Source of the DNA: Trichobilharzia regenti
Lineage: Eukaryota; Platyhelminthes; Trematoda; Strigeidida; Schistosomatidae
Direction of reading: 5' to 3'
Assembly: GCA_944472135.2 (NCBI GenBank)
Contig: OX235265.1
Coordinates: 41,947,459-42,011,458 of the forward strand
DNA: 64,000 nucleotides
Part shown: positions 3,013-62,112 of the stretch, piece after piece
Layout of the letters: each line of letters opens with the position of its first letter
Numbering within the stretch: position 1 is the stretch's first letter
Position numbers and translations under genes: made by a program
Notes under the pieces: model-generated
What the model was told of the DNA's origin: nothing
What the model saw: the letters and a program-made list of their open reading frames with translations, nothing else
The model's database searches: none

Positions 3013-3020
3013 CGAAACAC

Positions 3021-40213: not shown

Positions 40214-40218
40214 GGTTC
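40214..40218. other. Target-site duplication, left (GGTTC)
   Basis: Identical to 62108-62112, immediately outside the last LTR; 5 bp is the usual duplication for Ty3/gypsy integrases. Confidence 0.9.
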
Positions 40219-40747
40219 TGATATGTATCCACATATATATATTTATGTGTGTGTGTGCATGTTGGTCTCTCTTTCTGTTTGCTCGGTTAGTCTGTGACCA
40301 CTTCACTTGTATGAACTTGTCTCCTTTATCAATGTATATTCTCCTTATATTATATTATATATAATATGAGTGTTTGTTGACAGTCCGTTGCTTAGTGACA
40401 TATATCCATATATGTTTGTTGACATGTCTGCTATATTCGCTATGTATAATTGGATCGACACTCCATTATAATTAGCCATTCATGTTAAGACTGTCTAATG
40501 ATTTTTCCCACGCTTGTCTGAATTATTTATATATATTCGCATTCACAATTTGTGTGAACTACTTTACTTTACAACTACTTTACTTACTTACCACTTTGGT
40601 GTGAGACCATTTATTTTCGTCTCCTTGTGTTTGGACAATAGAAGTATCATCGCAAACCTAGTGGTCTTCTGATTTCCGCCTTCTCGCGTCAGGACTATTA
40701 GTTTCTCGACCAGTCCATAACAATAACCTAGCGACGAGTACATAACA
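40219..40747 (+). repeat. LTR 1 (left terminal)
   Basis: TG...CA bounded, preceded by the left TSD. A TATA-rich stretch at 40346-40367 is the best promoter candidate for transcription of the array. No AATAAA was seen, so the polyadenylation signal is unclear. Confidence 0.93.
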
Positions 40748-40866
40748 ATTTGTCGACGGGGAAACTAGTACATAACAATTTGGCGACGGGGAAACTAGAA
40801 CATAACAATTTGGCGACGGGGAAAACTACTATTAACCACACAGCAGCAACAACATAACAATTTACT
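40748..40866 (+). promoter_or_regulatory. Leader with reiterated primer-binding-site junction
   Basis: Three ~30-base units, each TACATAACA (the LTR terminus) + ATTTGGCGACGGGGAAA. The first unit, directly after the LTR, has TTGTCGACGGGG; the second and third have TTGGCGACGGGG. TGGCGACGGGGAAAC, placed 3 bases after the LTR, fits a tRNA primer-binding site; the donor tRNA is not identified. Confidence 0.7.
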
Positions 40867-42399
40867 ATGGATCCTATTAAATTGGAATTATTGTTTGAAC
40901 GACAAATGAAATTAATGGAAATGTTCGTCAACCAACAGACTGGTCCAGCTCCACCTTCAAGCAATCCCAATCATACCATGCTACCATCTGTCGACGGAAT
41001 TGTGAACAGTATTTCACAGTTCAATTATGACCCAGAGGCTAATGTCACTTTTGACACATGGTATCAACGTTATGAGGATTTATTCACTGTTGATCTCGCC
41101 TCACAAGACGATGCCTGGAAGGTGCGAGTTTTGCTACGTAAATTGGGTCCGGCAGAATATGAACGGTACTGCAACCTAATTTTACCACAGAAACCACGTG
41201 ACAATTGTTTCGATGATACAATAAAGTTGCTGCGTGAACATTTCGGAGACCACTCCTCATTATTCAGTATACGTTATCGTTGCCTCAAGCTGGCAATGAA
41301 TGAAAATGATGATTTTCTTACTCACGTTGGCACAGTCAACCGAGAATGTGAGAGATTTCGACTCAGGTCCTTAACAGATGATCAGTTCAAAGCCTTGATT
41401 CTCATATGCAGTCTCCAATCTCCTCGTTTCACAGATATCCGAACTCGACTGCTCAATCAGCTAGAACAAAATCCCAAGTTAACATTACATGACATAGCTG
41501 ATGAATATCAACGGCTGATTAATCTGCAGAAAGACACACACCTGGTCGAATCAACACCTCCGAGAAGCTCTGATATTCGTGCATTACGAAAGAGCAAAAA
41601 TCTCTCATCATCTACTCCTGACCCACCTTCTTCTAATGTTCCGCGGAAATCTACAGATACTCGTCCAACTTCACAAAATACGACAAAGAAGACCCCTCCA
41701 TCACCATGCTGGCACTGTGGCGCGTGGCACTTTGTAAAGTCTTGTCCATACAAAAATCATCGTTGCAGCAAGTGCAAGATCATCGGTCACAAAAATGGTT
41801 TTTGTCAGCCACGCAAACCCAGATGTCGAAATCCAGCGAAAGCTCGACAAACTGTTGGTCCTGAATCCCCCAAAAAGTCATTGAGTCTACGCGCAACCCG
41901 TCAAGTCACAACACCAGCTATGCGAAAATATCTTGATCTTCAGATGAATGGTCATGATGCACGTCTGCAGTTAGATACCGCCTCTGATACTACTGTTATA
42001 TCAGAGAAACTTTGGAATTATATAGGCAGACCACCTATCACCAATACTTCCCAGTCTCTTGTCAGCGCCTGTGGTGGGCAGCTCAAACTAATTGGTGAAC
42101 TCAAATGTTCTGTTTCCTTCCGCAATACCAAATTCACAGGAATTTGTAACGTCACAAAGAATGATTTAAATGTTTTGGGACTTGATTGGTTCGATCGTTT
42201 GCATCTGGCTGATGTCCCACTAAATTCGCTATGCAATGCAGCCAAGAAGCATAAAATGTTAGACAATTCCGGACGGAGCCGAAGCCGCAAACCCAACAAT
42301 CAGACGAAACGACAGGCGTCAACAACAAGCCCAAAGGTCCCAGATAAACCCCCAGGTAAACATCCTACTAATCATCCATTTTCTCAAAAGGGGAGGTGA
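40867..42399 (+). CDS. Gag-protease, array unit 1
   Basis: 510 residues. Residues 50-225 form a Ty3/gypsy-type Gag region of the K02A2.6-like/DUF7083 kind (FNYDPEANVTFDTWYQRYEDLF, then an all-helical capsid-like segment). Two zinc knuckles: Cys281, Cys284, His288, Cys293 and Cys300, Cys303, His308, Cys313. Retropepsin: catalytic DTAS at 370-373 in LQLDTASDTTVIS and the NVLGLDW flap-side motif at 435-441. A basic, proline-rich tail (460-510) ends SQKGR, coded by the polypurine tract. Expected to assemble capsids, bind RNA and self-cleave. In an autonomous relative, RT would follow the protease; here the frame ends in the next LTR. Protein identical to unit 6. Confidence 0.95.
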   Translation: MDPIKLELLFERQMKLMEMFVNQQTGPAPPSSNPNHTMLPSVDGIVNSISQFNYDPEANVTFDTWYQRYEDLFTVDLASQDDAWKVRVLLRKLGPAEYERYCNLILPQKPRDNCFDDTIKLLREHFGDHSSLFSIRYRCLKLAMNENDDFLTHVGTVNRECERFRLRSLTDDQFKALILICSLQSPRFTDIRTRLLNQLEQNPKLTLHDIADEYQRLINLQKDTHLVESTPPRSSDIRALRKSKNLSSSTPDPPSSNVPRKSTDTRPTSQNTTKKTPPSPCWHCGAWHFVKSCPYKNHRCSKCKIIGHKNGFCQPRKPRCRNPAKARQTVGPESPKKSLSLRATRQVTTPAMRKYLDLQMNGHDARLQLDTASDTTVISEKLWNYIGRPPITNTSQSLVSACGGQLKLIGELKCSVSFRNTKFTGICNVTKNDLNVLGLDWFDRLHLADVPLNSLCNAAKKHKMLDNSGRSRSRKPNNQTKRQASTTSPKVPDKPPGKHPTNHPFSQKGR

Positions 42400-42925
42400 T
42401 ATGTATCCACATATATATATTTATGTGTGTGTGTGCATGTTGGTCTCTCTTTCTGTTTGCTCGGTTAGTCTGTGACCACTTCACTTGTATGAACTTGTCT
42501 CCTTTATCAATGTATATTCTCCTTATATTATATTATATATAATATGAGTGTTTGTTGACAGTCCGTTGCTTAGTGACATATATCCATATATGTTTGTTGA
42601 CATGTCTGCTATATTCGCTATGTATAATTGGATCGACACTCCATTATAATTAGCCATTCATGTTAAGACTGTCTAATGATTTTTCCCACGCTTGTCTGAA
42701 TTATTTATATATATTCGCATTCACAATTTGTGTGAACTACTTTACTTTACAACTACTTTACTTACTTACCACTTTGGTGTGAGACCATTTATTTTCGTCT
42801 CCTTGTGTTTGGACAATAGAAGTATCATCGCAAACCTAGTGGTCTTCTGATTTCCGCCTTCTCGCGTCAGGACTATTAGTTTCTCGACCAGTCCATAACA
42901 ATAACCTAGCGACGAGTACATAACA
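42397..42925 (+). repeat. LTR 2
   Basis: Overlaps the unit 1 stop codon by three bases. No difference from LTR 1 noticed. Confidence 0.93.
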
Positions 42926-43044
42926 ATTTGTCGACGGGGAAACTAGTACATAACAATTTGGCGACGGGGAAACTAGAACATAACAATTTGGCGACGGGGA
43001 AAACTACTATTAACCACACAGCAGCAACAACATAACAATTTACT

Positions 43045-44577
43045 ATGGATCCTATTAAATTGGAATTATTGTTTGAACGACAAATGAAATTAATGGAAAT
43101 GTTCGTCAACCAACAGACTGGTCCAGCTCCACCTTCAAGCAATCCCAATCATACCATGCTACCATCTGTCGACGGAATTGTGAACAGTATTTCACAGTTC
43201 AATTATGACCCAGAGGCTAATGTCACTTTTGACACATGGTATCAACGTTATGAGGATTTATTCACTGTTGATCTCGCCTCACAAGACGATGCCTGGAAGG
43301 TGCGAGTTTTGCTACGTAAATTGGGTCCGGCAGAATATGAACGGTACTGCAACCTAATTTTACCACAGAAACCACGTGACAATTGTTTCGATGATACAAT
43401 AAAGTTGCTGCGTGAACATTTCGGAGACCACTCCTCATTATTCAGTATACGTTATCGTTGCCTCAAGCTGGCAATGAATGAAAATGATGATTTTCTTACT
43501 CACGTTGGCACAGTCAACCGAGAATGTGAGAGATTTCGACTCAGGTCCTTAACAGATGATCAGTTCAAAGCCTTGATTCTCATATGCAGTCTCCAATCTC
43601 CTCGTTTCACAGATATCCGAACTCGACTGCTCAATCAGCTAGAACAAAATCCCAAGTTAACATTACATGACATAGCTGATGAATATCAACGGCTGATTAA
43701 TCTGCAGAAAGACACACACCTGGTCGAATCAACACCTCCGAGAAGCTCTGATATTCGTGCATTACGAAAGAGCAAAAATCTCTCATCATCTACTCCTGAC
43801 CCACCTTCTTCTAATGTTCCGCGGAAATCTACAGATACTCGTCCAACTTCACAAAATACGACAAAGAAGACCCCTCCATCACCATGCTGGCACTGTGGCG
43901 CGTGGCACTTTGTAAAGTCTTGTCCATACAAAAATCATCGTTGCAGCAAGTGCAAGATCATCGGTCACAAAAATGGTTTTTGTCAGCCACGCAAACCCAG
44001 ATGTCAAAATCCAGCGAAAGCTCGACAAACTGTTGGTCCTGAATCCCCCAAAAAGTCATTGAGTCTACGCGCAACCCGTCAAGTCACAACACCAGCTATG
44101 CGAAAATATCTTGATCTTCAGATGAATGGTCATGATGCACGTCTGCAGTTAGATACCGCCTCTGATACTACTGTTATATCAGAGAAACTTTGGAATTATA
44201 TAGGCAGACCACCTATCACCAATACTTCCCAGTCTCTTGTCAGCGCCTGTGGTGGGCAGCTCAAACTAATTGGTGAACTCAAATGTTCTGTTTCCTTCCG
44301 CAATACCAAATTCACAGGAATTTGTAACGTCACAAAGAATGATTTAAATGTTTTGGGACTTGATTGGTTCGATCGTTTGCATCTGGCTGATGTCCCACTA
44401 AATTCGCTATGCAATGCAGCCAAGAAGCATAAAATGTTAGACAATTCCGGACGGAGCCGAAGCCGCAAACCCAACAATCAGACGAAACGACAGGCGTCAA
44501 CAACAAGCCCAAAGGTCCCAGATAAACCCCCAGGTAAACATCCTACTAATCATCCATTTTCTCAAAAGGGGAGGTGA
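43045..44577 (+). CDS. Gag-protease, array unit 2
   Basis: Same 510-residue protein with a single change, Arg321 to Gln (RCQNPAKA), just after the second zinc knuckle. The 119-base leader (42926-43044) matches unit 1. The Gln321 allele is shared only with unit 3, so units 2 and 3 are each other's closest copies, as expected if one duplicated the other. Confidence 0.95.
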   Translation: MDPIKLELLFERQMKLMEMFVNQQTGPAPPSSNPNHTMLPSVDGIVNSISQFNYDPEANVTFDTWYQRYEDLFTVDLASQDDAWKVRVLLRKLGPAEYERYCNLILPQKPRDNCFDDTIKLLREHFGDHSSLFSIRYRCLKLAMNENDDFLTHVGTVNRECERFRLRSLTDDQFKALILICSLQSPRFTDIRTRLLNQLEQNPKLTLHDIADEYQRLINLQKDTHLVESTPPRSSDIRALRKSKNLSSSTPDPPSSNVPRKSTDTRPTSQNTTKKTPPSPCWHCGAWHFVKSCPYKNHRCSKCKIIGHKNGFCQPRKPRCQNPAKARQTVGPESPKKSLSLRATRQVTTPAMRKYLDLQMNGHDARLQLDTASDTTVISEKLWNYIGRPPITNTSQSLVSACGGQLKLIGELKCSVSFRNTKFTGICNVTKNDLNVLGLDWFDRLHLADVPLNSLCNAAKKHKMLDNSGRSRSRKPNNQTKRQASTTSPKVPDKPPGKHPTNHPFSQKGR

Positions 44578-45103
44578 TATGTATCCACATATATATATTT
44601 ATGTGTGTGTGTGCATGTTGGTCTCTCTTTCTGTTTGCTCGGTTAGTCTGTGACCACTTCACTTGTATGAACTTGTCTCCTTTATCAATGTATATTCTCC
44701 TTATATTATATTATATATAATATGAGTGTTTGTTGACAGTCCGTTGCTTAGTGACATATATCCATATATGTTTGTTGACATGTCTGCTATATTCGCTATG
44801 TATAATTGGATCGACACTCCATTATAATTAGCCATTCATGTTAAGACTGTCTAATGATTTTTCCCACGCTTGTCTGAATTATTTATATATATTCGCATTC
44901 ACAATTTGTGTGAACTACTTTACTTTACAACTACTTTACTTACTTACCACTTTGGTGTGAGACCATTTATTTTCGTCTCCTTGTGTTTGGACAATAGAAG
45001 TATCATCGCAAACCTAGTGGTCTTCTGATTTCCGCCTTCTCGCGTCAGGACTATTAGTTTCTCGACCAGTCCATAACAATAACCTAGCGACGAGTACATA
45101 ACA
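44575..45103 (+). repeat. LTR 3
   Basis: 529 bp, followed by a leader (45104-45204) of only 101 bases: an 18-base deletion removes most of the second junction unit (ggggaaa joined straight to gcgacgggg). Confidence 0.93.
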
Positions 45104-45204
45104 ATTTGTCGACGGGGAAAGCGACGGGGAAACTAGAACATAACAATTTGGCGACGGGGAAAACTACTATTAACCACACAGCAGCAACAACATAACAATT
45201 TACT

Positions 45205-46737
45205 ATGGATCCTATTAAATTGGAATTATTGTTTGAACGACAAATGAAATTAATGGAAATGTTCGTCAACCAACAGACTGGTCCAGCTCCACCTTCAAGC
45301 AATCCCAATCATACCATGCTACCATCTGTCGACGGAATTGTGAACAGTATTTCACAGTTCAATTATGACCCAGAGGCTAATGTCACTTTTGACACATGGT
45401 ATCAACGTTATGAGGATTTATTCACTGTTGATCTCGCCTCACAAGACGATGCCTGGAAGGTGCGAGTTTTGCTACGTAAATTGGGTCCGGCAGAATATGA
45501 ACGGTACTGCAACCTAATTTTACCACAGAAACCACGTGACAATTGTTTCGATGATACAATAAAGTTGCTGCGTGAACATTTCGGAGACCACTCCTCATTA
45601 TTCAGTATACGTTATCGTTGCCTCAAGCTGGCAATGAATGAAAATGATGATTTTCTTACTCACGTTGGCACAGTCAACCGAGAATGTGAGAGATTTCGAC
45701 TCAGGTCCTTAACAGATGATCAGTTCAAAGCCTTGATTCTCATATGCAGTCTCCAATCTCCTCGTTTCACAGATATCCGAACTCGACTGCTCAATCAGCT
45801 AGAACAAAATCCCAAGTTAACATTACATGACATAGCTGATGAATATCAACGGCTGATTAATCTGCAGAAAGACACACACCTGGTCGAATCAACACCTCCG
45901 AGAAGCTCTGATATTCGTGCATTACGAAAGAGCAAAAATCTCTCATCATCTACTCCTGACCCACCTTCTTCTAATGTTCCGCGGAAATCTACAGATACTC
46001 GTCCAACTTCACAAAATACGACAAAGAAGACCCCTCCATCACCATGCTGGCACTGTGGCGCGTGGCACTTTGTAAAGTCTTGTCCATACAAAAATCATCG
46101 TTGCAGCAAGTGCAAGATCATCGGTCACAAAAATGGTTTTTGTCAGCCACGCAAACCCAGATGTCAAAATCCAGCGAAAGCTCGACAAACTGTTGGTCCT
46201 GAATCCCCCAAAAAGTCATTGAGTCTACGCGCAACCCGTCAAGTCACAACACCAGCTATGCGAAAATATCTTGATCTTCAGATGAATGGTCATGATGCAC
46301 GTCTGCAGTTAGATACCGCCTCTGATACTACTGTTATATCAGAGAAACTTTGGAATTATATAGGCAGACCACCTATCACCAATACTTCCCAGTCTCTTGT
46401 CAGCGCCTGTGGTGGGCAGCTCAAACTAATTGGTGAACTCAAATGTTCTGTTTCCTTCCGCAATACCAAATTCACAGGAATTTGTAACGTCACAAAGAAT
46501 GATTTAAATGTTTTGGGACTTGATTGGTTCGATCGTTTGCATCTGGCTGATGTCCCACTAAATTCGCTATGCAATGCAGCCAAGAAGCATAAAATGTTAG
46601 ACAATTCCGGACGGAGCCGAAGCCGCAAACCCAACAATCAGACGAAACGACAGGCGTCAACAACAAGCCCAAAGGTCCCAGATAAACCCCCAGGTAAACA
46701 TCCTACTAATCATCCATTTTCTCAAAAGGGGAGGTGA
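45205..46737 (+). CDS. Gag-protease, array unit 3
   Basis: Protein identical to unit 2, including Gln321, although its leader carries a different deletion. This shows that leader lesions arise faster than coding substitutions. Confidence 0.95.
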   Translation: MDPIKLELLFERQMKLMEMFVNQQTGPAPPSSNPNHTMLPSVDGIVNSISQFNYDPEANVTFDTWYQRYEDLFTVDLASQDDAWKVRVLLRKLGPAEYERYCNLILPQKPRDNCFDDTIKLLREHFGDHSSLFSIRYRCLKLAMNENDDFLTHVGTVNRECERFRLRSLTDDQFKALILICSLQSPRFTDIRTRLLNQLEQNPKLTLHDIADEYQRLINLQKDTHLVESTPPRSSDIRALRKSKNLSSSTPDPPSSNVPRKSTDTRPTSQNTTKKTPPSPCWHCGAWHFVKSCPYKNHRCSKCKIIGHKNGFCQPRKPRCQNPAKARQTVGPESPKKSLSLRATRQVTTPAMRKYLDLQMNGHDARLQLDTASDTTVISEKLWNYIGRPPITNTSQSLVSACGGQLKLIGELKCSVSFRNTKFTGICNVTKNDLNVLGLDWFDRLHLADVPLNSLCNAAKKHKMLDNSGRSRSRKPNNQTKRQASTTSPKVPDKPPGKHPTNHPFSQKGR

Positions 46738-47263
46738 TATGTATCCACATATATATATTTATGTGTGTGTGTGCATGTTGGTCTCTCTTTCTGTTTGCTC
46801 GGTTAGTCTGTGACCACTTCACTTGTATGAACTTGTCTCCTTTATCAATGTATATTCTCCTTATATTATATTATATATAATATGAGTGTTTGTTGACAGT
46901 CCGTTGCTTAGTGACATATATCCATATATGTTTGTTGACATGTCTGCTATATTCGCTATGTATAATTGGATCGACACTCCATTATAATTAGCCATTCATG
47001 TTAAGACTGTCTAATGATTTTTCCCACGCTTGTCTGAATTATTTATATATATTCGCATTCACAATTTGTGTGAACTACTTTACTTTACAACTACTTTACT
47101 TACTTACCACTTTGGTGTGAGACCATTTATTTTCGTCTCCTTGTGTTTGGACAATAGAAGTATCATCGCAAACCTAGTGGTCTTCTGATTTCCGCCTTCT
47201 CGCGTCAGGACTATTAGTTTCTCGACCAGTCCATAACAATAACCTAGCGACGAGTACATAACA
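46735..47263 (+). repeat. LTR 4
   Basis: 529 bp, followed by a 115-base leader (47264-47378) in which the second junction unit reads acataacatgcgacgggg, a 4-base net loss with an altered base at the joint. Confidence 0.93.
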
Positions 47264-47378
47264 ATTTGTCGACGGGGAAACTAGTACATAACATGCGACG
47301 GGGAAACTAGAACATAACAATTTGGCGACGGGGAAAACTACTATTAACCACACAGCAGCAACAACATAACAATTTACT

Positions 47379-47921
47379 ATGGATCCTATTAAATTGGAAT
47401 TATTGTTTGAACGACAAATGAAATTAATGGAAATGTTCGTCAACCAACAGACTGGTCCAGCTCCACCTTCAAGCAATCCCAATCATACCATGCTACCATC
47501 TGTCGACGGAATTGTGAACAGTATTTCACAGTTCAATTATGACCCAGAGGCTAATGTCACTTTTGACACATGGTATCAACGTTATGAGGATTTATTCACT
47601 GTTGATCTCGCCTCACAAGACGATGCCTGGAAGGTGCGAGTTTTGCTACGTAAATTGGGTCCGGCAGAATATGAACGGTACTGCAACCTAATTTTACCAC
47701 AGAAACCACGTGACAATTGTTTCGATGATACAATAAAGTTGCTGCGTGAACATTTCGGAGACCACTCCTCATTATTCAGTATACGTTATCGTTGCCTCAA
47801 GCTGGCAATGAATGAAAATGATGATTTTCTTACTCACGTTGGCACAGTCAACCGAGAATGTGAGAGATTTCGACTCAGGTCCTTAACAGATGATCAGTTC
47901 AAAGCCTTGATTCTCATGTGC
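47379..47921 (+). pseudogene. Gag-protease unit 4, 5' part (interrupted by the BEL-like element)
   Basis: Codes residues 1-180 identically to unit 1. The frame then runs into the inserted LTR and stops at 47948, adding an unrelated tail (MCCHQSLINR). The remainder of the unit resumes at 51911. The product would keep the Gag N-terminus but lose knuckles and protease. Confidence 0.93.
47917..47921. other. Target-site duplication of the BEL-like insertion, left (TGTGC)
   Basis: Matches TATGC at 51911-51915 except for one base. The uninterrupted units have TATGC here, so the left copy mutated after insertion. Confidence 0.85.
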
Positions 47922-48294
47922 TGTCATCAAAGTCTCATAAACCGGTAATGCCCAGCTCTCGCTACGCTCGGGCCCACGCTGTTCCTTGGAGTTTTCAGAA
48001 ACGCTTAGTTATAACGGACGAAAAAACCAAAACACCAATTGTTGACTTGAGTATTATGTATTGTTACACCAGCATATAAATCAAGTATCACTAAGCAAAC
48101 TAAGAAAACTAAGGTCTGTAAACAAATATTACAATAATAAATCGTTATGTTACTTCTAACGATGTTTAACTCTTCTTTCTGAACAGCGACCGATGAGACG
48201 ATGACTGTCGTATTGATGCCTCCGCGAAAATCGAGGAAGTTGATTTTGAGCAAACAACCAAGAATTGATCGTTCAATCTTCAACTCCATTGACA
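47922..48294 (-). repeat. BEL-like 3' LTR (minus orientation)
   Basis: On the minus strand it begins TGTCAATGG and ends TTGATGACA. The adjacent CGGGGAG at about 48295-48302 (minus strand) is a possible polypurine tract. Confidence 0.9.
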
Positions 48295-48859
48295 CTCCCC
48301 GGCAAAAAAGGGATCCAACCCTTTTTTCCTTCACGACCAATGCACGTTGACTTGGATGCCATTGCGAGAACCTGGGTCACACGGACAGAGCTGAAATGGA
48401 AAACAAACAGAAAAGCCAACACACCACAAGCATACCCACAGCACAATCTCACACATCAATGACGACCTGCGCCTCCAGACAGAGACCTCCTCTTGACATC
48501 TTGCAACACAGTCTCCACTTGCTAGAATGACTCTTGCAGAATGCAAAGTGACCATGGCAGCACCTCACGATACTCTACGCGCATCCTCTTATTTATTCAC
48601 TACCAATTACCACTGAAATCGCTTGTCACTCATTCTGCCTCAGTTCTAATAGCGGTGACGCATGCGAGCCTCAGTCGTTTACACTCTTTCTCCCCGGCGT
48701 GTCGGACCGCAGCTAACAATTATCTCCGTGTGCATTTCATTCTCAGCAATAGCCTAGCCTCCCCGGCGTATACGACCCATCTGCTGTCCTTAACATCAAT
48801 CAATTCATTCATGGATGTAGAAGACTCGAAACAACTTCAGAAATAATCACGACGAAAAT

Positions 48860-49443
48860 TTTAACAAAATTACGCAATAACAACAAGACACGAAAACAAC
48901 AAGTAAACACAATGAATCCAAAAAACACCAATTGCTATGACACACCACACGTATATACAAATAGTACAAACAACCTCGCCGATCATGTCTTGGTGGAATT
49001 CCTTTGAAGAATTGCAGGACTTACACCAGTACGCCTACAACCCTTCACAGGTTGACGATTGTAAGTTGTGGAATGTCCAGACACAAACAAGATTAACCAA
49101 CAATTACATCAATTGGAACTCACACAACTATTTAACACAAACATATGTACAATCAACACATCAAATGTTGTGGATTCTGACACGACAAACTACCCTTGAA
49201 GAACCGTAGGACTTACAGCAGTACGCCTACATTCCTTCTCAGGTTGATGATCCAAGTGGAAGTCATCCGGACACAAACAGAATTACCAACAGCTAGATGA
49301 TAAATGATATCAATTCAGTATATACAATATGAACATATGTACAAAATCACACACCAAGCACATTGGACTGCTCATTGATGCGCTACCCTTTGAAGAATTG
49401 TAGGACTTACAGCAGTACGCCTACAACCCTTCTCAGGTTGACG
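48860..49443 (-). repeat. Three ~190-bp tandem repeats in the BEL-like 3' region
   Basis: The block caacctgagaagg..tgtaggcgtactg..taagtcctacaattcttcaa recurs (inverse complement) ending near 49443, 49249 and 49058. It begins directly after the gag stop codon. The same three blocks occur in the right-edge copy. Confidence 0.85.
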
Positions 49444-49445
49444 CC

Positions 49446-51401: not shown

Positions 51402-51545
51402 TGTTGAACTTGACCAAATTCCAAAAAAGTTCCAGATATTGCTTGTTCAAAGAGGACTTGACCGGCACCAGGAAAGATGAACGGCGACTATCCAAACTTT
51501 CACCAACTGTTTCAATCCGCCAGATCTGTTTCCATCGTTAGAAAC

Positions 51546-52902: not shown

Positions 52903-53428
52903 TATGTATCCACATATATATATTTATGTGTGTGTGTGCATGTTGGTCTCTCTTTCTGTTTGCTCGGTTAGTCTGTGACCACTTCACTTGTATGAACTTG
53001 TCTCCTTTATCAATGTATATTCTCCTTATATTATATTATATATAATATGAGTGTTTGTTGACAGTCCGTTGCTTAGTGACATATATCCATATATGTTTGT
53101 TGACATGTCTGCTATATTCGCTATGTATAATTGGATCGACACTCCATTATAATTAGCCATTCATGTTAAGACTGTCTAATGATTTTTCCCACGCTTGTCT
53201 GAATTATTTATATATATTCGCATTCACAATTTGTGTGAACTACTTTACTTTACAACTACTTTACTTACTTACCACTTTGGTGTGAGACCATTTATTTTCG
53301 TCTCCTTGTGTTTGGACAATAGAAGTATCATCGCAAACCTAGTGGTCTTCTGATTTCCGCCTTCTCGCGTCAGGACTATTAGTTTCTCGACCAGTCCATA
53401 ACAATAACCTAGCGACGAGTACATAACA
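52900..53428 (+). repeat. LTR 5
   Basis: 529 bp. The following leader (53429-53543, 115 bases) has the second junction unit altered to aaataacataacaattggcg. Confidence 0.93.
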
Positions 53429-53543
53429 ATTTGTCGACGGGGAAATAACATAACAATTGGCGACGGGGAAACTAGAACATAACAATTTGGCGACGGGGAA
53501 AACTACTATTAACCACACAGCAGCAACAACATAACAATTTACT

Positions 53544-55076
53544 ATGGATCCTATTAAATTGGAATTATTGTTTGAACGACAAATGAAATTAATGGAAATG
53601 TTCGTCAACCAACAGACTGGTCCAGCTCCACCTTCAAGCAATCCCAATCATACCATGCTACCATCTGTCGACGGAATTGTGAACAGTATTTCACAGTTCA
53701 ATTATGACCCAGAGGCTAATGTCACTTTTGACACATGGTATCAACGTTATGAGGATTTATTCACTGTTGATCTCGCCTCACAAGACGATGCCTGGAAGGT
53801 GCGAGTTTTGCTACGTAAATTGGGTCCGGCAGAATATGAACGGTACTGCAACCTAATTTTACCACAGAAACCACGTGACAATTGTTTCGATGATACAATA
53901 AAGTTGCTGCGTGAACATTTCGGAGACCACTCCTCATTATTCAGTATACGTTATCGTTGCCTCAAGCTGGCAATGAATGAAAATGATGATTTTCTTACTC
54001 ACGTTGGCACAGTCAACCGAGAATGTGAGAGATTTCGACTCAGGTCCTTAACAGATGATCAGTTCAAAGCCTTGATTCTCATATGCAGTCTCCAATCTCC
54101 TCGTTTCACAGATATCCGAACTCGACTGCTCAATCAGCTAGAACAAAATCCCAAGTTAACATTACATGACATAGCTGATGAATATCAACGGCTGATTAAT
54201 CTGCAGAAAGACACACACCTGGTCGAATCAACACCTCCGAGAAGCTCTGATATTCGTGCATTACGAAAGAGCAAAAATCTCTCATCATCTACTCCTGACC
54301 CACCTTCTTCTAATGTTCCGCGGAAATCTACAGATACTCGTCCAACTTCACAAAATACGACAAAGAAGACCCCTCCATCACCATGCTGGCACTGTGGCGC
54401 GTGGCACTTTGTAAAGTCTTGTCCATACAAAAATCATCGTTGCAGCAAGTGCAAGATCATCGGTCACAAAAATGGTTTTTGTCAGCCACGCAAACCCAGA
54501 TGTCGAAATCCAGCGAAAGCTCGACAAACTGTTGGTCCTAAATTCCCCAAAAAATCATTGAGTCTACGCGCAACCTGTCAAGTCACAACACCAAATATGC
54601 GGAAATATATTGACCTTCAAATGAATGGTCATGATGCACGTCTGCAGTTAGATACCGCCTCTGATACTACTGTTATATCAGAGAAACTTTGGAATAATAT
54701 TGGCAAACCACCTATCACCAATACTTCCCAGTCTCTTGTCAGCGCCTGTGGTGGGCGGCTCAAACTAATTGGTGAACTCAAATGTTCCGTTTCCTTCCGC
54801 AATACCAAATTCACAGGAATTCGTTACGTCACGAAGAATGATTTAAATGTTTTGGGATTTGATTGGTTCGATCGTTTGCATCTGGCTGATGTCCCACTAA
54901 ATTCTCTACGCAATACAGTCAGGAAGCATAAAATGCTAGACAATTCCGGACGGAGCCGAAGCTGCAAACCCAACAGGAAGACGAAACGACAGGCGTCAAC
55001 AACAAGCCCAAAGGTCCCAGATAAACCCCCAGGTAAACATCCTACTAATCATCGATCTTCTCAAAAGGGGAGGTGA
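53544..55076 (+). CDS. Gag-protease, array unit 5 (mosaic)
   Basis: Identical to unit 1 up to about residue 332, then about 20 substitutions to the end (for example GPKFPKK, ATCQVTTPNMRKYID, NNIGKPP, GIRYVTKND, VLGFDWF, RNTVRKHK). DTAS and both knuckles are kept and the frame is open, so the diverged half looks like a once-functional variant. The change begins sharply at about 54540 and continues through LTR 6. Confidence 0.95.
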   Translation: MDPIKLELLFERQMKLMEMFVNQQTGPAPPSSNPNHTMLPSVDGIVNSISQFNYDPEANVTFDTWYQRYEDLFTVDLASQDDAWKVRVLLRKLGPAEYERYCNLILPQKPRDNCFDDTIKLLREHFGDHSSLFSIRYRCLKLAMNENDDFLTHVGTVNRECERFRLRSLTDDQFKALILICSLQSPRFTDIRTRLLNQLEQNPKLTLHDIADEYQRLINLQKDTHLVESTPPRSSDIRALRKSKNLSSSTPDPPSSNVPRKSTDTRPTSQNTTKKTPPSPCWHCGAWHFVKSCPYKNHRCSKCKIIGHKNGFCQPRKPRCRNPAKARQTVGPKFPKKSLSLRATCQVTTPNMRKYIDLQMNGHDARLQLDTASDTTVISEKLWNNIGKPPITNTSQSLVSACGGRLKLIGELKCSVSFRNTKFTGIRYVTKNDLNVLGFDWFDRLHLADVPLNSLRNTVRKHKMLDNSGRSRSCKPNRKTKRQASTTSPKVPDKPPGKHPTNHRSSQKGR

Positions 55077-55602
55077 TATGTATCCACATATATATATTTA
55101 TGTGTGTGTGTGCATGTTGGTCTCTCTTTCTGTTTGCTCGGTTAGTCTGTGACCACTTCACTTGTATGAACTTGTCTCCTTTATCAATGTATATTCTCCT
55201 TATATTATATTATATATAATATGAGTGTTTGTTGACAGTCCGTTGCTTGGTGACATATATCCATATATGTTTGTTGGCATGTCTGCTATATTCGCTATGT
55301 ATAATTGGATCGACACTCCATTATAATTAGCCATTCATGTTAAGACTGTCTAATGATTTTTCCCACGCTTGTCTGGAACATTCATATATATTCGCATTCA
55401 CAATTTGTGTGAACTACTTTACTTTACAACTACTTTACTTACTTATCACTTTGGTGTGAGACCATTTATTTTCGTCTCCTTGTGTTTGGACAATAGAAGT
55501 ATCATCGCAAACCTAGTGGTCTTCTGATTTCCGCCTTCTCGCGTCAGGACTATTAGTTTCTCGACCAGTCCATAACAATAATTCAGCGACGAGTACATAA
55601 CA
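55074..55602 (+). repeat. LTR 6 (diverged)
   Basis: Same 529-bp length but with linked differences (gcttggtgacat, gttggcatgt, gtctggaacattcatata, cttatcact, aattcagcg). The following leader (55603-55721, 119 bases) is the only one whose first junction unit has the unmutated TTGGCGACGGGG. Confidence 0.93.
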
Positions 55603-55721
55603 ATTTGGCGACGGGGAAACTAGTACATAACAATTTGGCGACGGGGAAACTAGAACATAACAATTTGGCGACGGGGAAAACTACTATTAACCACACAGCA
55701 GCAACAACATAACAATTTACT

Positions 55722-57254
55722 ATGGATCCTATTAAATTGGAATTATTGTTTGAACGACAAATGAAATTAATGGAAATGTTCGTCAACCAACAGACTGGTC
55801 CAGCTCCACCTTCAAGCAATCCCAATCATACCATGCTACCATCTGTCGACGGAATTGTGAACAGTATTTCACAGTTCAATTATGACCCAGAGGCTAATGT
55901 CACTTTTGACACATGGTATCAACGTTATGAGGATTTATTCACTGTTGATCTCGCCTCACAAGACGATGCCTGGAAGGTGCGAGTTTTGCTACGTAAATTG
56001 GGTCCGGCAGAATATGAACGGTACTGCAACCTAATTTTACCACAGAAACCACGTGACAATTGTTTCGATGATACAATAAAGTTGCTGCGTGAACATTTCG
56101 GAGACCACTCCTCATTATTCAGTATACGTTATCGTTGCCTCAAGCTGGCAATGAATGAAAATGATGATTTTCTTACTCACGTTGGCACAGTCAACCGAGA
56201 ATGTGAGAGATTTCGACTCAGGTCCTTAACAGATGATCAGTTCAAAGCCTTGATTCTCATATGCAGTCTCCAATCTCCTCGTTTCACAGATATCCGAACT
56301 CGACTGCTCAATCAGCTAGAACAAAATCCCAAGTTAACATTACATGACATAGCTGATGAATATCAACGGCTGATTAATCTGCAGAAAGACACACACCTGG
56401 TCGAATCAACACCTCCGAGAAGCTCTGATATTCGTGCATTACGAAAGAGCAAAAATCTCTCATCATCTACTCCTGACCCACCTTCTTCTAATGTTCCGCG
56501 GAAATCTACAGATACTCGTCCAACTTCACAAAATACGACAAAGAAGACCCCTCCATCACCATGCTGGCACTGTGGCGCGTGGCACTTTGTAAAGTCTTGT
56601 CCATACAAAAATCATCGTTGCAGCAAGTGCAAGATCATCGGTCACAAAAATGGTTTTTGTCAGCCACGCAAACCCAGATGTCGAAATCCAGCGAAAGCTC
56701 GACAAACTGTTGGTCCTGAATCCCCCAAAAAGTCATTGAGTCTACGCGCAACCCGTCAAGTCACAACACCAGCTATGCGAAAATATCTTGATCTTCAGAT
56801 GAATGGTCATGATGCACGTCTGCAGTTAGATACCGCCTCTGATACTACTGTTATATCAGAGAAACTTTGGAATTATATAGGCAGACCACCTATCACCAAT
56901 ACTTCCCAGTCTCTTGTCAGCGCCTGTGGTGGGCAGCTCAAACTAATTGGTGAACTCAAATGTTCTGTTTCCTTCCGCAATACCAAATTCACAGGAATTT
57001 GTAACGTCACAAAGAATGATTTAAATGTTTTGGGACTTGATTGGTTCGATCGTTTGCATCTGGCTGATGTCCCACTAAATTCGCTATGCAATGCAGCCAA
57101 GAAGCATAAAATGTTAGACAATTCCGGACGGAGCCGAAGCCGCAAACCCAACAATCAGACGAAACGACAGGCGTCAACAACAAGCCCAAAGGTCCCAGAT
57201 AAACCCCCAGGTAAACATCCTACTAATCATCCATTTTCTCAAAAGGGGAGGTGA
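55722..57254 (+). CDS. Gag-protease, array unit 6
   Basis: Protein identical to unit 1 over 510 residues, with Arg321. Preceded by the only leader with three intact junction units, which makes this the best candidate for the ancestral arrangement. Confidence 0.95.
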   Translation: MDPIKLELLFERQMKLMEMFVNQQTGPAPPSSNPNHTMLPSVDGIVNSISQFNYDPEANVTFDTWYQRYEDLFTVDLASQDDAWKVRVLLRKLGPAEYERYCNLILPQKPRDNCFDDTIKLLREHFGDHSSLFSIRYRCLKLAMNENDDFLTHVGTVNRECERFRLRSLTDDQFKALILICSLQSPRFTDIRTRLLNQLEQNPKLTLHDIADEYQRLINLQKDTHLVESTPPRSSDIRALRKSKNLSSSTPDPPSSNVPRKSTDTRPTSQNTTKKTPPSPCWHCGAWHFVKSCPYKNHRCSKCKIIGHKNGFCQPRKPRCRNPAKARQTVGPESPKKSLSLRATRQVTTPAMRKYLDLQMNGHDARLQLDTASDTTVISEKLWNYIGRPPITNTSQSLVSACGGQLKLIGELKCSVSFRNTKFTGICNVTKNDLNVLGLDWFDRLHLADVPLNSLCNAAKKHKMLDNSGRSRSRKPNNQTKRQASTTSPKVPDKPPGKHPTNHPFSQKGR

Positions 57255-57780
57255 TATGTATCCACATATATATATTTATGTGTGTGTGTGCATGTTGGTT
57301 TCTCTTTCTGTTTGCTCGGTTAGTCTGTGACCACTTCACTTGTATGAACTTGTCTCCTTTATCAATGTATATTCTCCTTATATTATATTATATATAATAT
57401 GAGTGTTTGTTGACAGTCCGTTGCTTAGTGACATATATCCATATATGTTTGTTGACATGTCTGCTATATTCGCTATGTATAATTGGATCGACACTCCATT
57501 ATAATTAGCCATTCATGTTAAGACTGTCTAATGATTTTTCCCACGCTTGTCTGAATTATTTATATATATTCGCATTCACAATTTGTGTGAACTACTTTAC
57601 TTTACAACTACTTTACTTACTTACCACTTTGGTGTGAGACCATTTATTTTCGTCTCCTTGTGTTTGGACAATAGAAGTATCATCGCAAACCTAGTGGTCT
57701 TCTGATTTCCGCCTTCTCGCGTCAGGACTATTAGTTTCTCGACCAGTCCATAACAATAACCTAGCGACGAGTACATAACA
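57252..57780 (+). repeat. LTR 7
   Basis: One noticed substitution (ggtttctctttc). Followed by a 105-base leader (57781-57885), 14 bases shorter, with the joint ggggaaataatgcgacgggg. Confidence 0.93.
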
Positions 57781-57885
57781 ATTTGTCGACGGGGAAATAA
57801 TGCGACGGGGAAACTAGAACATAACAATTTGGCGACGGGGAAAACTACTATTAACCACACAGCAGCAACAACATAACAATTTACT

Positions 57886-59418
57886 ATGGATCCTATTAAA
57901 TTGGAATTATTGTTTGAACGACAAATGAAATTAATGGAAATGTTCGTCAACCAACAGACTGGTCCAGCTCCACCTTCAAGCAATACCAATCATACCATGC
58001 TACCATCTGTCGACGGAATTGTGAACAGTATTTCACAGTTCAATTATGACCCAGAGGCTAATGTCACTTTTGACACATGGTATCAACGTTATGAGGATTT
58101 ATTCACTGTTGATCTCGCCTCACAAGACGATGCCTGGAAGGTGCGAGTTTTGCTACGTAAATTGGGTCCGGCAGAATATGAACGGTACTACAACCTAATT
58201 TTACCACAGAAACCACGTGACAATTGTTTCGATGATACAATAAAGTTGCTGCGTGAACATTTCGGAGACCACTCCTCATTATTCAGTATACGTTATTGTT
58301 GCCTCAAGCTGGCAATGAATGAAAATGATGATTTTCTTACTCACGTTGGCACAGTCAACCGAGAATGTGAGAGATTTCGACTCAGGTCCTTAACAGATGA
58401 TCAGTTCAAAGCCTTGATTCTCATATGCAGTCTCCAATCTCCTCGTTTCACAGATATCCGAACTCGACTGCTCAATCAGCTAGAACAAAATCCCAAGTTA
58501 ACATTACATGACATAGCTGATGAATATCAACGGCTGATTAATCTGCAGAAAGACACACACCTGGTCGAATCAACACCTCCGAGAAGCTCTGATATTCGTG
58601 CATTACGAAAGAGCAAAAATCTCTCATCATCTACTCCTGACCCACCTTCTTCTAATGTTCCGCGGAAATCTACAGATACTCGTCCAACTTCACAAAATAC
58701 GACAAAGAAGACCCCTCCATCACCATGCTGGCACTGTGGCGCGTGGCACTTTGTAAAGTCTTGTCCATACAAAAATCATCGTTGCAGCAAGTGCAAGATC
58801 ATCGGTCACAAAAATGGTTTTTGTCAGCCACGCAAACCCAGATGTCGAAATCCAGCGAAAGCTCGACAAACTGTTGGTCCTGAATCCCCCAAAAAGTCAT
58901 TGAGTCTACGCGCAACCCGTCAAGTCACAACACCAGCTATGCGAAAATATCTTGATCTTCAGATGAATGGTCATGATGCACGTCTGCAGTTAGATACCGC
59001 CTCTGATACTACTGTTATATCAGAGAAACTTTGGAATTATATAGGCAGACCACCTATCACCAATACTTCCCAGTCTCTTGTCAGCGCCTGTGGTGGGCAG
59101 CTCAAACTAATTGGTGAACTCAAATGTTCTGTTTCCTTCCGCAATACCAAATTCACAGGAATTTGTTACGTCACAAAGAATGATTTAAATGTTTTGGGAC
59201 TTGATTGGTTCGATCGTTTGCATCTGGCTGATGTCCCACTAAATTCGCTATGCAATGCAGCCAAGAAGCATAAAATGTTAGACAATTCCGGACGGAGCCG
59301 AAGCCGCAAACCCAACAATCAGACGAAACGACAGGCGTCAACAACAAGCCCAAAGGTCCCAGATAAACCCCCAGGTAAACATCCTACTAATCATCCATCT
59401 TCTCAAAAGGGGAGGTGA
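57886..59418 (+). CDS. Gag-protease, array unit 7
   Basis: Full frame with five changes versus unit 1: Pro34 to Thr, Cys102 to Tyr, Arg138 to Cys, Asn428 to Tyr and Phe505 to Ser. The last two are also found in the diverged half of unit 5, which suggests a short shared conversion tract at the 3' end. Zinc-knuckle and protease residues unaffected. Confidence 0.95.
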   Translation: MDPIKLELLFERQMKLMEMFVNQQTGPAPPSSNTNHTMLPSVDGIVNSISQFNYDPEANVTFDTWYQRYEDLFTVDLASQDDAWKVRVLLRKLGPAEYERYYNLILPQKPRDNCFDDTIKLLREHFGDHSSLFSIRYCCLKLAMNENDDFLTHVGTVNRECERFRLRSLTDDQFKALILICSLQSPRFTDIRTRLLNQLEQNPKLTLHDIADEYQRLINLQKDTHLVESTPPRSSDIRALRKSKNLSSSTPDPPSSNVPRKSTDTRPTSQNTTKKTPPSPCWHCGAWHFVKSCPYKNHRCSKCKIIGHKNGFCQPRKPRCRNPAKARQTVGPESPKKSLSLRATRQVTTPAMRKYLDLQMNGHDARLQLDTASDTTVISEKLWNYIGRPPITNTSQSLVSACGGQLKLIGELKCSVSFRNTKFTGICYVTKNDLNVLGLDWFDRLHLADVPLNSLCNAAKKHKMLDNSGRSRSRKPNNQTKRQASTTSPKVPDKPPGKHPTNHPSSQKGR

Positions 59419-59944
59419 TATGTATCCACATATATATATTTATGTGTGTGTGTGCATGTTGGTCTCTCTTTCTGTTTGCTCGGTTAGTCTGTGACCACTT
59501 CACTTGTATGAACTTGTCTCCTTTAATAATGTATATTCTCCTTATATTATATTATATATAATATGAGTGTTTGTTGACAGTCCGTTGCTTGGTGACATAT
59601 ATCCATATATGTTTGTTGGCATGTCTGCTATATTCGCTATGTATAATTGGATCGACACTCCATTATAATTAGCCATTCATGTTAAGACTGTCTAATGATT
59701 TTTCCCACGCTTGTCTGAATTATTTATATATATTCGCATTCACAATTTGTGTGAACTACTTTACTTTACAACTACTTTACTTACTTACCACTTTGGTGTG
59801 AGACCATTTATTTTCGTCTCCTTGTGTTTGGACAATAGAAGTATCATCGCAAACCTAGTGGTCTTCTGATTTCCGCCTTCTCGCGTCAGGACTATTAGTT
59901 TCTCGACCAGTCCATAACAATAACCTAGCGACGAGTACATAACA
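59416..59944 (+). repeat. LTR 8 (partly diverged)
   Basis: Shares gcttggtgacat and gttggcatgt with LTR 6 but has the common form elsewhere, plus a private change (ctttaataatg). The next leader (59945-60048, 104 bases) has a 15-base deletion joining ggggaaactag to cgacgggg. Confidence 0.93.
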
Positions 59945-60048
59945 ATTTGTCGACGGGGAAACTAGCGACGGGGAAACTAGAACATAACAATTTGGCGACG
60001 GGGAAAACTACTATTAACCACACAGCAGCAACAACATAACAATTTACT

Positions 60049-61581
60049 ATGGATCCTATTAAATTGGAATTATTGTTTGAACGACAAATGAAATTAATGG
60101 AAATGTTCGTCAACCAACAGACTGGTCCAGCTCCACCTTCAAGCAATCCCAATCATACCATGCTACCATCTGTCGACGGAATTGTGAACAGTATTTCACA
60201 GTTCAATTATGACCCAGAGGCTAATGTCACTTTTGACACATGGTATCAACGTTATGAGGATTTATTCACTGTTGATCTCGCCTCACAAGACGATGCCTGG
60301 AAGGTGCGAGTTTTGCTACGTAAATTGGGTCCGGCAGAATATGAACGGTACTGCAACCTAATTTTACCACAGAAACCACGTGACAATTGTTTCGATGATA
60401 CAATAAAGTTGCTGCGTGAACATTTCGGAGACCACTCCTCATTATTCAGTATACGTTATCGTTGCCTCAAGCTGGCAATGAATGAAAATGATGATATTCT
60501 TACTCACGTTGGCACAGTCAACCGAGAATGTGAGAGATTTCGACTCAGGTCCTTAACAGATGATCAGTTCAAAGCCTTGATTCTCATATGCAGTCTCCAA
60601 TCTCCTCGTTTCACAGATATCCGAACTCGACTGCTCAATCAGCTAGAACAAAATCCCAAGTTAACATTACATGACATAGCTGATGAATATCAACGGCTGA
60701 TTAATCTGCAGAAAGACACACACCTGGTCGAATCAACACCTCCGAGAAGCTCTGATATTCGTGCATTACGAAAGAGCAAAAATCTCTCATCATCTACTCC
60801 TGACCCACCTTCTTCTGATGTTCCGCGGAAATCTACAGATACTCGTCCAACTTCACAAAATACGACAAAGAAGACCCCTCCATCACCATGCTGGCACTGT
60901 GGCGCGTGGCACTTTGTAAAGTCTTGTCCATACAAAAATCATCGTTGCAGCAAGTGCAAGATCATCGGTCACAAAAATGGTTTTTGTCAGCCACGCAAAC
61001 CCAGATGTCGAAATCCAGCGAAAGCTCGACAAACTGTTGGTCCTGAATCCCCCAAAAAGTCATTGAGTCTACGCGCAACCCGTCAAGTCACAACACCAGC
61101 TATGCGAAAATATCTTGATCTTCAGATGAATGGTCATGATGCACGTCTGCAGTTAGATACCGCCTCTGATACTACCGTTATATCAGAGAAACTTTGGAAT
61201 TATATAGGCAGACCACCTATCACCAATACTTCCCAGTCTCTTGTCAGCGCCTGTGGTGGGCAGCTCAAACTAATTGGTGAACTCAAATGTTCTGTTTCCT
61301 TCCGCAATACCAAATTCACAGGAATTTGTAACGTCACAAAGAATGATTTAAATGTTTTGGGACTTGATTGGTTCGATCGTTTGCATCTGGCTGATGTCCC
61401 ACTAAATTCGCTATGCAATGCAGCCAAGAAGCATAAAATGTTAGACAATTCCGGACGGAGCCGAAGCCGCAAACCCAACAATCAGACGAAACGACAGGCG
61501 TCAACAACAAGCCCAAAGGTCCCAGATAAACCCCCAGGTAAACATCCTACTAATCATCCATTTTCTCAAAAGGGGAGGTGA
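60049..61581 (+). CDS. Gag-protease, array unit 8
   Basis: Full frame with two changes versus unit 1: Phe150 to Ile (NDDILTH) and Asn257 to Asp (SSDVPRK). Last complete unit; its stop overlaps the terminal LTR. Confidence 0.95.
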   Translation: MDPIKLELLFERQMKLMEMFVNQQTGPAPPSSNPNHTMLPSVDGIVNSISQFNYDPEANVTFDTWYQRYEDLFTVDLASQDDAWKVRVLLRKLGPAEYERYCNLILPQKPRDNCFDDTIKLLREHFGDHSSLFSIRYRCLKLAMNENDDILTHVGTVNRECERFRLRSLTDDQFKALILICSLQSPRFTDIRTRLLNQLEQNPKLTLHDIADEYQRLINLQKDTHLVESTPPRSSDIRALRKSKNLSSSTPDPPSSDVPRKSTDTRPTSQNTTKKTPPSPCWHCGAWHFVKSCPYKNHRCSKCKIIGHKNGFCQPRKPRCRNPAKARQTVGPESPKKSLSLRATRQVTTPAMRKYLDLQMNGHDARLQLDTASDTTVISEKLWNYIGRPPITNTSQSLVSACGGQLKLIGELKCSVSFRNTKFTGICNVTKNDLNVLGLDWFDRLHLADVPLNSLCNAAKKHKMLDNSGRSRSRKPNNQTKRQASTTSPKVPDKPPGKHPTNHPFSQKGR

Positions 61582-62107
61582 TATGTATCCACATATATAT
61601 ATTTATGTGTGTGTGTGCATGTTGGTCTCTCTTTCTGTTTGCTCGGTTAGTCTGTGACCACTTCACTTGTATGAACTTGTCTCCTTTATCAATGTATATT
61701 CTCCTTATATTATATTATATATAATATGAGTGTTTGTTGACAGTCCGTTGCTTAGTGACATATATCCATATATGTTTGTTGACATGTCTGCTATATTCGC
61801 TATGTATAATTGGATCGACACTCCATTATAATTAGCCATTCATGTTAAGACTGTCTAATGATTTTTCCCACGCTTGTCTGAATTATTTATATATATTCGC
61901 ATTCACAATTTGTGTGAACTACTTTACTTTACAACTACTTTACTTACTTACCACTTTGGTGTGAGACCATTTATTTTCGTCTCCTTGTGTTTGGACAATA
62001 GAAGTATCATCGCAAACCTAGTGGTCTTCTGATTTCCGCCTTCTCGCGTCAGGACTATTAGTTTCTCGACCAGTCCATAACAATAACCTAGCGACGAGTA
62101 CATAACA
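61579..62107 (+). repeat. LTR 9 (right terminal)
   Basis: Ends ...TACATAACA at 62107 and is followed at once by the right TSD, without any leader sequence, confirming the LTR boundary used for the other eight copies. Confidence 0.93.
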
Positions 62108-62112
62108 GGTTC
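62108..62112. other. Target-site duplication, right (GGTTC)
   Basis: Partner of 40214-40218. Confidence 0.9.

Follow-up and report, generated by a model that had tools for sequence, protein, structure and literature searches.

The 64,000-nt window of Trichobilharzia regenti DNA analysed here contains, at positions 40214-62112, a 21.9-kb array of nine 529-bp LTRs and eight gag-protease units devoid of reverse transcriptase (RT) and integrase, arranged head-to-tail and sharing their LTRs. The array probably stems from a single insertion, which most likely grew in place from one or few units by unequal exchange between LTRs, accompanied to some extent by gene conversion from other copies of the element.

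The LTRs were located at 40219-40747 (LTR1; 529 bp, TG...CA), 42397-42925 (LTR2), 44575-45103 (LTR3), 46735-47263 (LTR4), 52900-53428 (LTR5), 55074-55602 (LTR6), 57252-57780 (LTR7), 59416-59944 (LTR8) and 61579-62107 (LTR9, identical to LTR1 and forming the right end of the array). All of them, like the leaders and ORFs in between, lie on the + strand. The target-site duplication (TSD) GGTTC occurs as one pair, at the outer ends only (40214-40218 and 62108-62112). A search for inner TSDs at the unit junctions found none, and polypurine tract, LTR and leader follow one another there without a break. This is the organization of a shared-LTR array, in which single LTRs separate the internal regions and the TSD is confined to the outer ends. 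The repeats are kilobases long and 98-100% identical, far beyond chance. An earlier sequence-only reading had described nine 529-bp LTRs, eight gag-protease units and GGTTC duplications at the outermost ends only; these points were borne out, with exact coordinates, and its proposal of one integration is likewise supported.

In unit 1, the gag-protease ORF (510 aa) extends from 40867 to 42399; its final residues are encoded by the polypurine tract AAAAGGGGAGG (42386-42396), and its TGA stop is formed by the first three bases of LTR2. The other uninterrupted 510-aa ORFs are those of unit 2 (43045-44577), unit 3 (45205-46737, identical to unit 2), unit 5 (53544-55076, a mosaic from about codon 333), unit 6 (55722-57254, identical to unit 1), unit 7 (57886-59418) and unit 8 (60049-61581). 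As had been claimed, the frame is open in seven of the eight units. The exception, unit 4, is cut solely by an insertion at 47922-51910, and both parts of its ORF (47379-47921, up to the insertion, and 51911-52902) are open. The insertion is a nested LTR element on the - strand with a DUF1759 ORF of 651 aa (49446-51401), which we take to be a BEL/Pao element. Its LTRs measure about 372 and 365 bp, and it is flanked by TGTGC and TATGC. The two LTRs differ by four substitutions and an 8-bp indel, all within about the first 105 bp, and an age estimate based on them was discarded because the differences are clustered.

Six of the nine LTRs are identical; relative to LTR1, ten base differences were counted in LTR6, one in LTR7 and four in LTR8. 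The units had been said to differ by 0-5 residues except for one mosaic, which is correct for comparisons with unit 1, but pairwise differences among the six non-mosaic open units range from 0 to 7. Mosaic unit 5 differs from these six by 20-22 residues. Its 3' part and LTR6 form a divergent tract (54540-55608), with 31 coding differences relative to unit 1 and 10 LTR differences relative to LTR1. This block comes from another branch; no donor was found among the 40 of 3,710 candidates scored, the best of which, outside the array, is 97% identical. LTR8, which at positions 111, 112, 176 and 204 has the bases usual in the family, and the end of unit 7 retain family states. All four combinations of sites 1610 and 1930 are present once other loci are included, and recombination is therefore needed. 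Judged from these sequences, the array is not a purely clonal expansion; the degree of identity would fit a recent expansion.

The suggestion that coding capacity may be maintained holds for the family, in which pooled pN/pS between 13 loci was 0.31, so that the frame has been under constraint at this level. It does not extend to the array itself, where eight of nine coding changes are nonsynonymous (units 4 and 5 excluded; neutral P of 8 or more = 0.28). This is compatible with neutral change, and the open frames in the array reflect youth rather than selection on the array. The coding comparison covered 42 of 45 units, leaving out units 2 and 3 of the locus C5:34274093 and unit 4 of the array. 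Among the 42, 33 are open at 510 aa, and two more, open at 511 aa, were excluded from pN/pS. Alignment columns 1192-1206 and 1397-1399, which result from the cut of unit 4 at the nested element, were not counted.

The unit protein comprises a DUF7083 capsid region (PF23309, 6.8e-23), zinc knuckles and a retropepsin domain, in which both the fold and the active-site motif are present. A domain search detected no pol domain (RT or integrase) in the unit, and tblastn gave no match to a family pol in the rest of the window. Autonomous schistosome DUF7083 elements, such as P0126 (S. japonicum Gag-Pol, 1,367 aa), presumably a gypsy element, have a gag and protease homologous to those of the unit, but also carry the RT and integrase domains that it lacks. 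On its domain content, the unit is a pol-less derivative of a gypsy-like DUF7083 lineage and not an autonomous member. A PR-RT relative, P0111, exists in T. regenti. Of the 7,983 proteins scored in the P0111 search for a polymerase partner, 1,308 reached E <= 1e-60, and the best 120 of these 1,308 included no other T. regenti protein by name. No support was obtained for reading the last ~45 residues of the unit ORF as the end of pol; P0001 was their sole full-length match among 233 proteins. The structure search concerned, in effect, the protease domain only; a sequence search of solved structures yielded weak matches only, DDI1 proteases among them, and phages, plasmids and viral contigs gave no match.

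The junction between unit end and LTR was detected in 638 exact copies in the T. regenti genome (954 Mb). Of these 638, the 100 that were listed lie on a single contig and group into 57 loci; 18 of the loci contain 2-7 junctions less than 5 kb apart (61 of the 100 junctions). Tandem here denotes the same strand and a spacing below 5 kb, exact matching overlooks units with an altered junction, and two groups (C1:107224251, with a 3.9-kb gap, and C1:14218715, with a 4.4-kb gap) were counted as tandem by spacing alone. From C8:120557238 onward, an array extends over seven unit lengths and the start of one more. Given these loci and the published arrays discussed below, the claim that an eightfold gag array is exceptional was not upheld. 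At all 22 complete loci read, nine of them tandem, there is one outer pair of 5-bp TSDs; this set omits C2:93978932 (truncated, one LTR) and C1:15868693 (LTR pieces <400 bp). An Rfam search gave no match in sequence L056.

Growth in place, by DNA exchange between end repeats, is the most likely origin of these smaller or similar stacks across the genome. It is favoured because the units cluster by locus: 28 of 29 units have their nearest relative within their own locus (a tie being scored as own-locus, and two palindrome arms as one locus), and the mean unit difference is 7.3 within loci and 40.2 between them (lowest value in 2,000 label shuffles, 27.6). There are exceptions to this locus specificity, in that unit 1 of C5:34274093 is nearer to two other loci than to its own, the single copy C8:25039865 and a unit of the C8:108963467 array are only two bases apart, and the third LTR of C1:95922121 is 20-22 bases from the other two. 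Moreover, C1:105328005 (four units) and C1:105339939 (two units), which share flanks and the TSD CAATC within one genome, form the two arms of a palindrome with 99.75% identity over 1,601 bp, so the unit number changed after insertion. Growth in place is further favoured by the multiplication of units bearing a foreign insert at C1:148656381-148670099, where three units spaced by 4,572-4,574 bp contain the same insert, which matches at 801 of 801 bases in each of the two comparisons and was absent at the tested place ahead of the first unit. Likewise, the adjacent units 2 and 3 of C5:34274093 have in common a shortened ORF and the loss of LTR bases 1-46. The 4.57-kb array was rejected as an autonomous version of the element, for it consists of the same gag-protease unit, to which a foreign insert containing a piece of reverse transcriptase (RVT_1) has been added; its gag-protease frame is broken in the unit read.

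The palindrome, foreign-insert and deletion evidence comes from these other family loci and not from the 21.9-kb array. The sequence-only reading had left a choice between a multimer at entry and expansion in place, and it is the second that the other loci back, through locus clustering, palindrome arms and multiplied insert. For the array in the window, a pol-bearing relative would have supplied in trans the enzymes for the first integration, and unequal exchange between near-identical LTRs would then most likely have brought the count at this site from one or few units up to eight, with some contribution of gene conversion from other copies. Such exchange would lower as well as raise the unit number, the reverse leading to a single unit or a solo LTR.

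The leader of unit 1 (40748-40866) consists of three copies of a 30-bp module, composed of ACATAACA, ATT and the 18-base PBS-like stretch TGGCGACGGGGAAACTAG; module copy 1 has TGT in place of the TGG that is the usual family state and is seen in PBS-like copy 1 of the unit 6 leader (55603-55721). Five of the eight units show small leader changes, each different and confined to one 18-bp stretch, which simple LTR exchange does not predict. The altered leaders are those of unit 3 (45104-45204; 101 bp, 18 bp shorter), unit 4 (47264-47378; 115 bp), unit 5 (53429-53543; 115 bp, with a change unlike that of unit 4), unit 7 (57781-57885; 105 bp) and unit 8 (59945-60048; 104 bp). At C8:115222133, the leader has one module. 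An unexpected observation was the stepwise shift of the right end of the LTR, by 0, 1, 2 and 3 copies of the module at 11, 5, 5 and 1 of the 22 loci, respectively; the LTR occurs in forms of 529, about 559 and about 589 bp. The PBS-like stretch would imply a tRNA 3' end CTAGTTTCCCCGTCGCCA; no tRNA was found in the 64,000-nt window. If a tRNA primed minus-strand synthesis at any of several tandem copies of this putative PBS, the LTR end would move in 30-bp steps, which bears on the evolution of LTR length. Tentatively, the family may be pictured as a retrotransposon that encodes only gag and protease and whose LTR boundary can move (priming at PBS copy 1, 2, 3 or 4), the units of which multiply in place at about one third of loci into a dispersed protein-coding satellite, providing many capsid and protease copies and drawing its polymerase from a partner.

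The leaders also bear on whether the array was built by serial cDNA recombination, in which array RNA gives rise to cDNA that is inserted into a resident copy by annealing at the LTR or PBS, independently of integrase and unit by unit, each with a freshly made leader. In line with this scheme, all length differences among the eight units fall between PBS-like copies 1 and 2, four of the five altered leaders pick up again at the third base of PBS copy 2, three of the five stop after base 14 of copy 1, and units 2 and 3 are the same in ORF and LTR, with leaders 18 bp apart. According to one review, integrase-independent insertion tends to result in tandem insertions, and the end-joining machinery of the host operates at the PBS (PMC12786077). 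The scheme is nevertheless unlikely: one and the same insertion has different leaders in its two palindrome arms, 8 of the 11 loci at which the LTR is extended have a 5' leader unlike the 3' extension (our own reading), and the multiplied foreign insert and common deletion are more simply copied as DNA. As leaders vary within single insertions, the module repeat may mutate by itself, which weakens leader differences as proof of cDNA-end joining at the PBS.

Entry as a multimer, whereby read-through RNA or a cDNA concatemer of several units was integrated in one event, would agree with the single TSD; read-through RNA is conceivable since neither AATAAA nor ATTAAA is present in the LTR, and short units would leave room in the particle. 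Yet two copies of a single insertion have unequal unit numbers, eight units, at about 17 kb, far exceed the 1,367-codon gag-pol frame of P0126, and the variants within the array would require later recombination or mixed sources, so we consider this origin quite improbable. An assembly artefact concealing a smaller true unit number would be very surprising. Near-identical tandem units are a classical error source and the count here was taken from the assembly alone, but the longest exact repeat within the array is 2,160 bp, so that reads of a few kb should resolve the place of each unit. In addition, several units bear private marks, including a 4-kb insertion in one, both ends are anchored with matching TSDs, and similar arrays occur at other loci. 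Growth in place by unequal LTR exchange is thus the preferred reading.

The T. regenti array is a variant of a kind of shared-LTR array already published in plants (PMC11899658, PMC7215508), bivalves (PMC6934838) and tapeworms (PMC4558846). The tandem LTR-retrotransposons of rice and other plants, mostly gypsy and polymorphic in unit number, similarly show alternating LTRs and internal regions, shared LTRs and an outer TSD only; the two loci detailed there have two units each, versus up to eight in T. regenti, whose array is animal, gag-protease-only and accompanied by evidence of post-insertion growth (PMC11899658). Cassandra and other TRIMs are also short non-autonomous LTR elements in tandem with shared LTRs, and PCR in plants showed arrays of at least 12 units (PMC7215508). 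Further cases are the biv-TRIM array TDR58_I57 in a clam (PMC6934838) and the few tandems of taeniid ta-TRIM, ascribed to unequal crossing over (PMC4558846). Cassandra is said to be without coding capacity (PMC7215508), whereas the T. regenti units encode capsid and protease, with frames mostly open among those read, and in this respect fall outside the TRIM definition. The papers cited here on shared-LTR arrays leave open whether such arrays enter as multimers or grow in place, and the present family provides natural test cases within one genome: a single insertion that exists with two different unit numbers, and units that multiplied after foreign DNA had inserted. Protein-coding arrays appear here as the recurrent habit of one family.

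TR-GAG elements are a plant class with LTRs and a gag ORF but no pol. The T. regenti unit, for which the name would serve as a structural label only, resembles them in having LTRs and a gag ORF and no pol; it also has a polypurine tract and, in the PBS-like stretch, a putative PBS. It differs in being a flatworm gypsy-like element, in a gag that runs into a protease domain, and in its tandem habit.

The array is real, and is a striking instance of the tandem habit of its family, the gag-protease-only LTR retrotransposons with a DUF7083 capsid region, zinc knuckles and a retropepsin. It lies where the sequence-only reading had placed it, with the target-site duplication (TSD) GGTTC read in the sequence at both 40214-40218 and 62108-62112, and between these two copies were found the nine 529-bp LTRs, eight internal regions and seven open 510-codon frames that had been described. 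The eighth frame, that of unit 4, is open on either side of a nested LTR element (47922-51910; DUF1759 ORF; flanks TGTGC/TATGC), which we take to be BEL/Pao. Six of the nine LTRs are identical, and the longest exact repeat within the array is 2,160 bp. The claimed difference of 0-5 residues was too narrow, the six non-mosaic open units differing by 0-7, while the single mosaic was upheld: unit 5 differs from these six by 20-22 residues and departs from unit 1 only downstream of the start of codon 333.

The divergent block starts at 54540, runs through the whole of LTR6 and comprises 31 coding and 10 LTR differing sites. Of the candidates scored elsewhere, the best matches it at 97%, and some of its LTR states recur in the 5' LTR of C8:96042378. 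LTR positions 111, 112, 176 and 204 are A, T, G and G in nearly all other loci (exceptions occur within C1:95922121, C4:82577723 and C8:96042378), and LTR8 has these common family states. Similarly, unit position 1610 is A in every other locus having a base there; units 2 and 3 carry this common base, and unit 7 combines the common base at 1930 with the other base at 1610. Once other loci are included, all four combinations of sites 1610 and 1930 are present, which means that recombination has occurred.

A search of the T. regenti genome with unit 1 as query gave 68 matches from 24 scored of 3,851 candidates. Across 22 complete loci of the family, a set skewed toward close relatives of unit 1, 45 units were examined; nine loci were tandem, or 8 of 21 independent insertions, since two of the nine are arms of one palindrome. 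As a less biased measure, the exact 35-base junction of polypurine tract and LTR start was counted genome-wide, with 638 occurrences, versus none for the reversed control sequence. The first 100 of these places (all on C1, 6.8-177 Mb) formed 57 loci by spacing: 39 were single, and the other 18 held between two and seven junctions each. Two of these 18 groups, classed as tandem by their spacing, contain a wide gap, of 3.9 kb in one and 4.4 kb in the other. Tandem loci contained 61 of these 100 junctions, against a chance expectation of 0.17 neighbours. A further array starts at C8:120557238, with an LTR seven unit lengths on, at 120572294, followed by another leader; five junctions were scored between the two positions. 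The window array is therefore among the largest seen in the family, with company elsewhere in the genome, and its earlier description as exceptional is not supported.

All 22 complete loci have a single perfect 5-bp TSD at their outer ends. The nearest relative of 28 of 29 units lay within the same locus (ties scored as own locus, palindrome arms treated as one locus), with mean differences between units of 7.3 within loci versus 40.2 between loci. Two cases depart from this likeness: unit 1 of C5:34274093 is closer to a pair of other loci than to its own, and C8:25039865, a single copy, differs from one unit of the C8:108963467 array by only two bases. Three loci fit multiplication of units in place at the DNA level. 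The palindrome on C1 (about 105327056-105345830; stretches L022, L023, L031 and L041) represents one insertion, with the TSD CAATC and the same flanks, and one of its arms holds four units, the other two. On either side of a 74-bp centre, the arms match at 99.75% over 1,601 bp, of which 337 are LTR sequence. Two haplotypes wrongly joined might give such an arrangement, but homology past the arrays stops within ~1 kb on the far side, which argues against that explanation. At C1:148656381-148670099 (stretches L056-L058), three units have in common a foreign insert, with 801 bases identical, before the gag start codon; it includes a reverse-transcriptase piece, and the tested place before the first lacks it. 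At C5:34274093, a short ORF and the loss of LTR bases 1-46 are common to two neighbouring units. Unequal exchange between LTRs would yield such in-place multiplication. The first few units may have entered as a multimer.

The leader, between LTR and gag start codon, was built at the 22 loci from a 30-bp module present between one and about five times, each copy made up of the last eight LTR bases, ATT, an 18-base stretch resembling a primer-binding site (PBS) and one base. In the array, all changes in leader length fall between module copies 1 and 2, affecting five of eight units with five different alleles. The right LTR end lies at base 529 in 11 of the 22 loci and one, two or three modules further in 5, 5 and 1 (11, 4, 5 and 1 of 21 with the palindrome counted once), and the TSD directly adjoins it in every one. 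We infer that any PBS-like copy can serve for priming. A degenerate module within the LTR end, in a stretch picked by eye, had a score reached by 4 of 5,000 base shuffles.

In comparisons between 13 loci, the pooled pN/pS was 0.31 (0.34 for the capsid, 0.27 for linker and knuckles, 0.29 for the protease and 0.72 for the tail), so the gag-protease protein has mattered for the spread of the family. Inside eight arrays the ratio was 0.46 (32 nonsynonymous and 21 synonymous sites), and in the window array, unit 5 excluded, nonsynonymous to synonymous changes stood at 8:1; its open frames thus need no selection. The suggestion that coding capacity may be maintained hence agrees with constraint on the family, but is not required for this array.

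Shared-LTR arrays are a known kind. In the portions of the sources drawn on here, plant tandems with shared LTRs and one TSD are described with the mechanism left open (PMC11899658), TRIM arrays are reported (PMC7215508, PMC6934838, PMC4558846), with as many as 58 LTR copies in a clam (PMC6934838) and a few tandems in tapeworms (PMC4558846), and a review covers the joining of ends at the PBS as well as tandems formed without integrase (PMC12786077). Among the literature matches listed, no paper was evidently on schistosome gag-protease arrays or on an LTR end shifting with PBS copies. What is new, as variation on that kind, is that the unit codes for protein, that arrays reach this scale in a flatworm, and that the LTR end slides.

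A second Trichobilharzia gag-protease family is represented by the database proteins P0033 (560 aa, in a cluster of 15 members) and P0034 (571 aa, in a cluster of 27), and apparently lacks most of pol but for a different remnant. The T. regenti protein model P0016 fuses an RRM-domain protein with a gag-protease of the array family, and may reflect either exonisation of a copy or a mistake in annotation. Within the window, one DUF1759 (BEL/Pao-like) element occurs as three copies or parts, that in unit 4 and those at 31070-33254 and 63152-64000, the latter two about 90% and 97% alike over common parts. Just left of the array, a repeat cluster contains three type I hammerhead ribozymes of 52.5 bits each (38091-38136 and 38491-38536, both minus strand; 38909-38954, plus strand), and related repeats lie at about 15.8-16.3 and 18.6-19.3 kb. 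At 238-4109 on the minus strand, a 924-aa endonuclease-reverse transcriptase ORF of non-LTR retrotransposon type stands beside a 362-aa ORF with a weak PHD-finger match.
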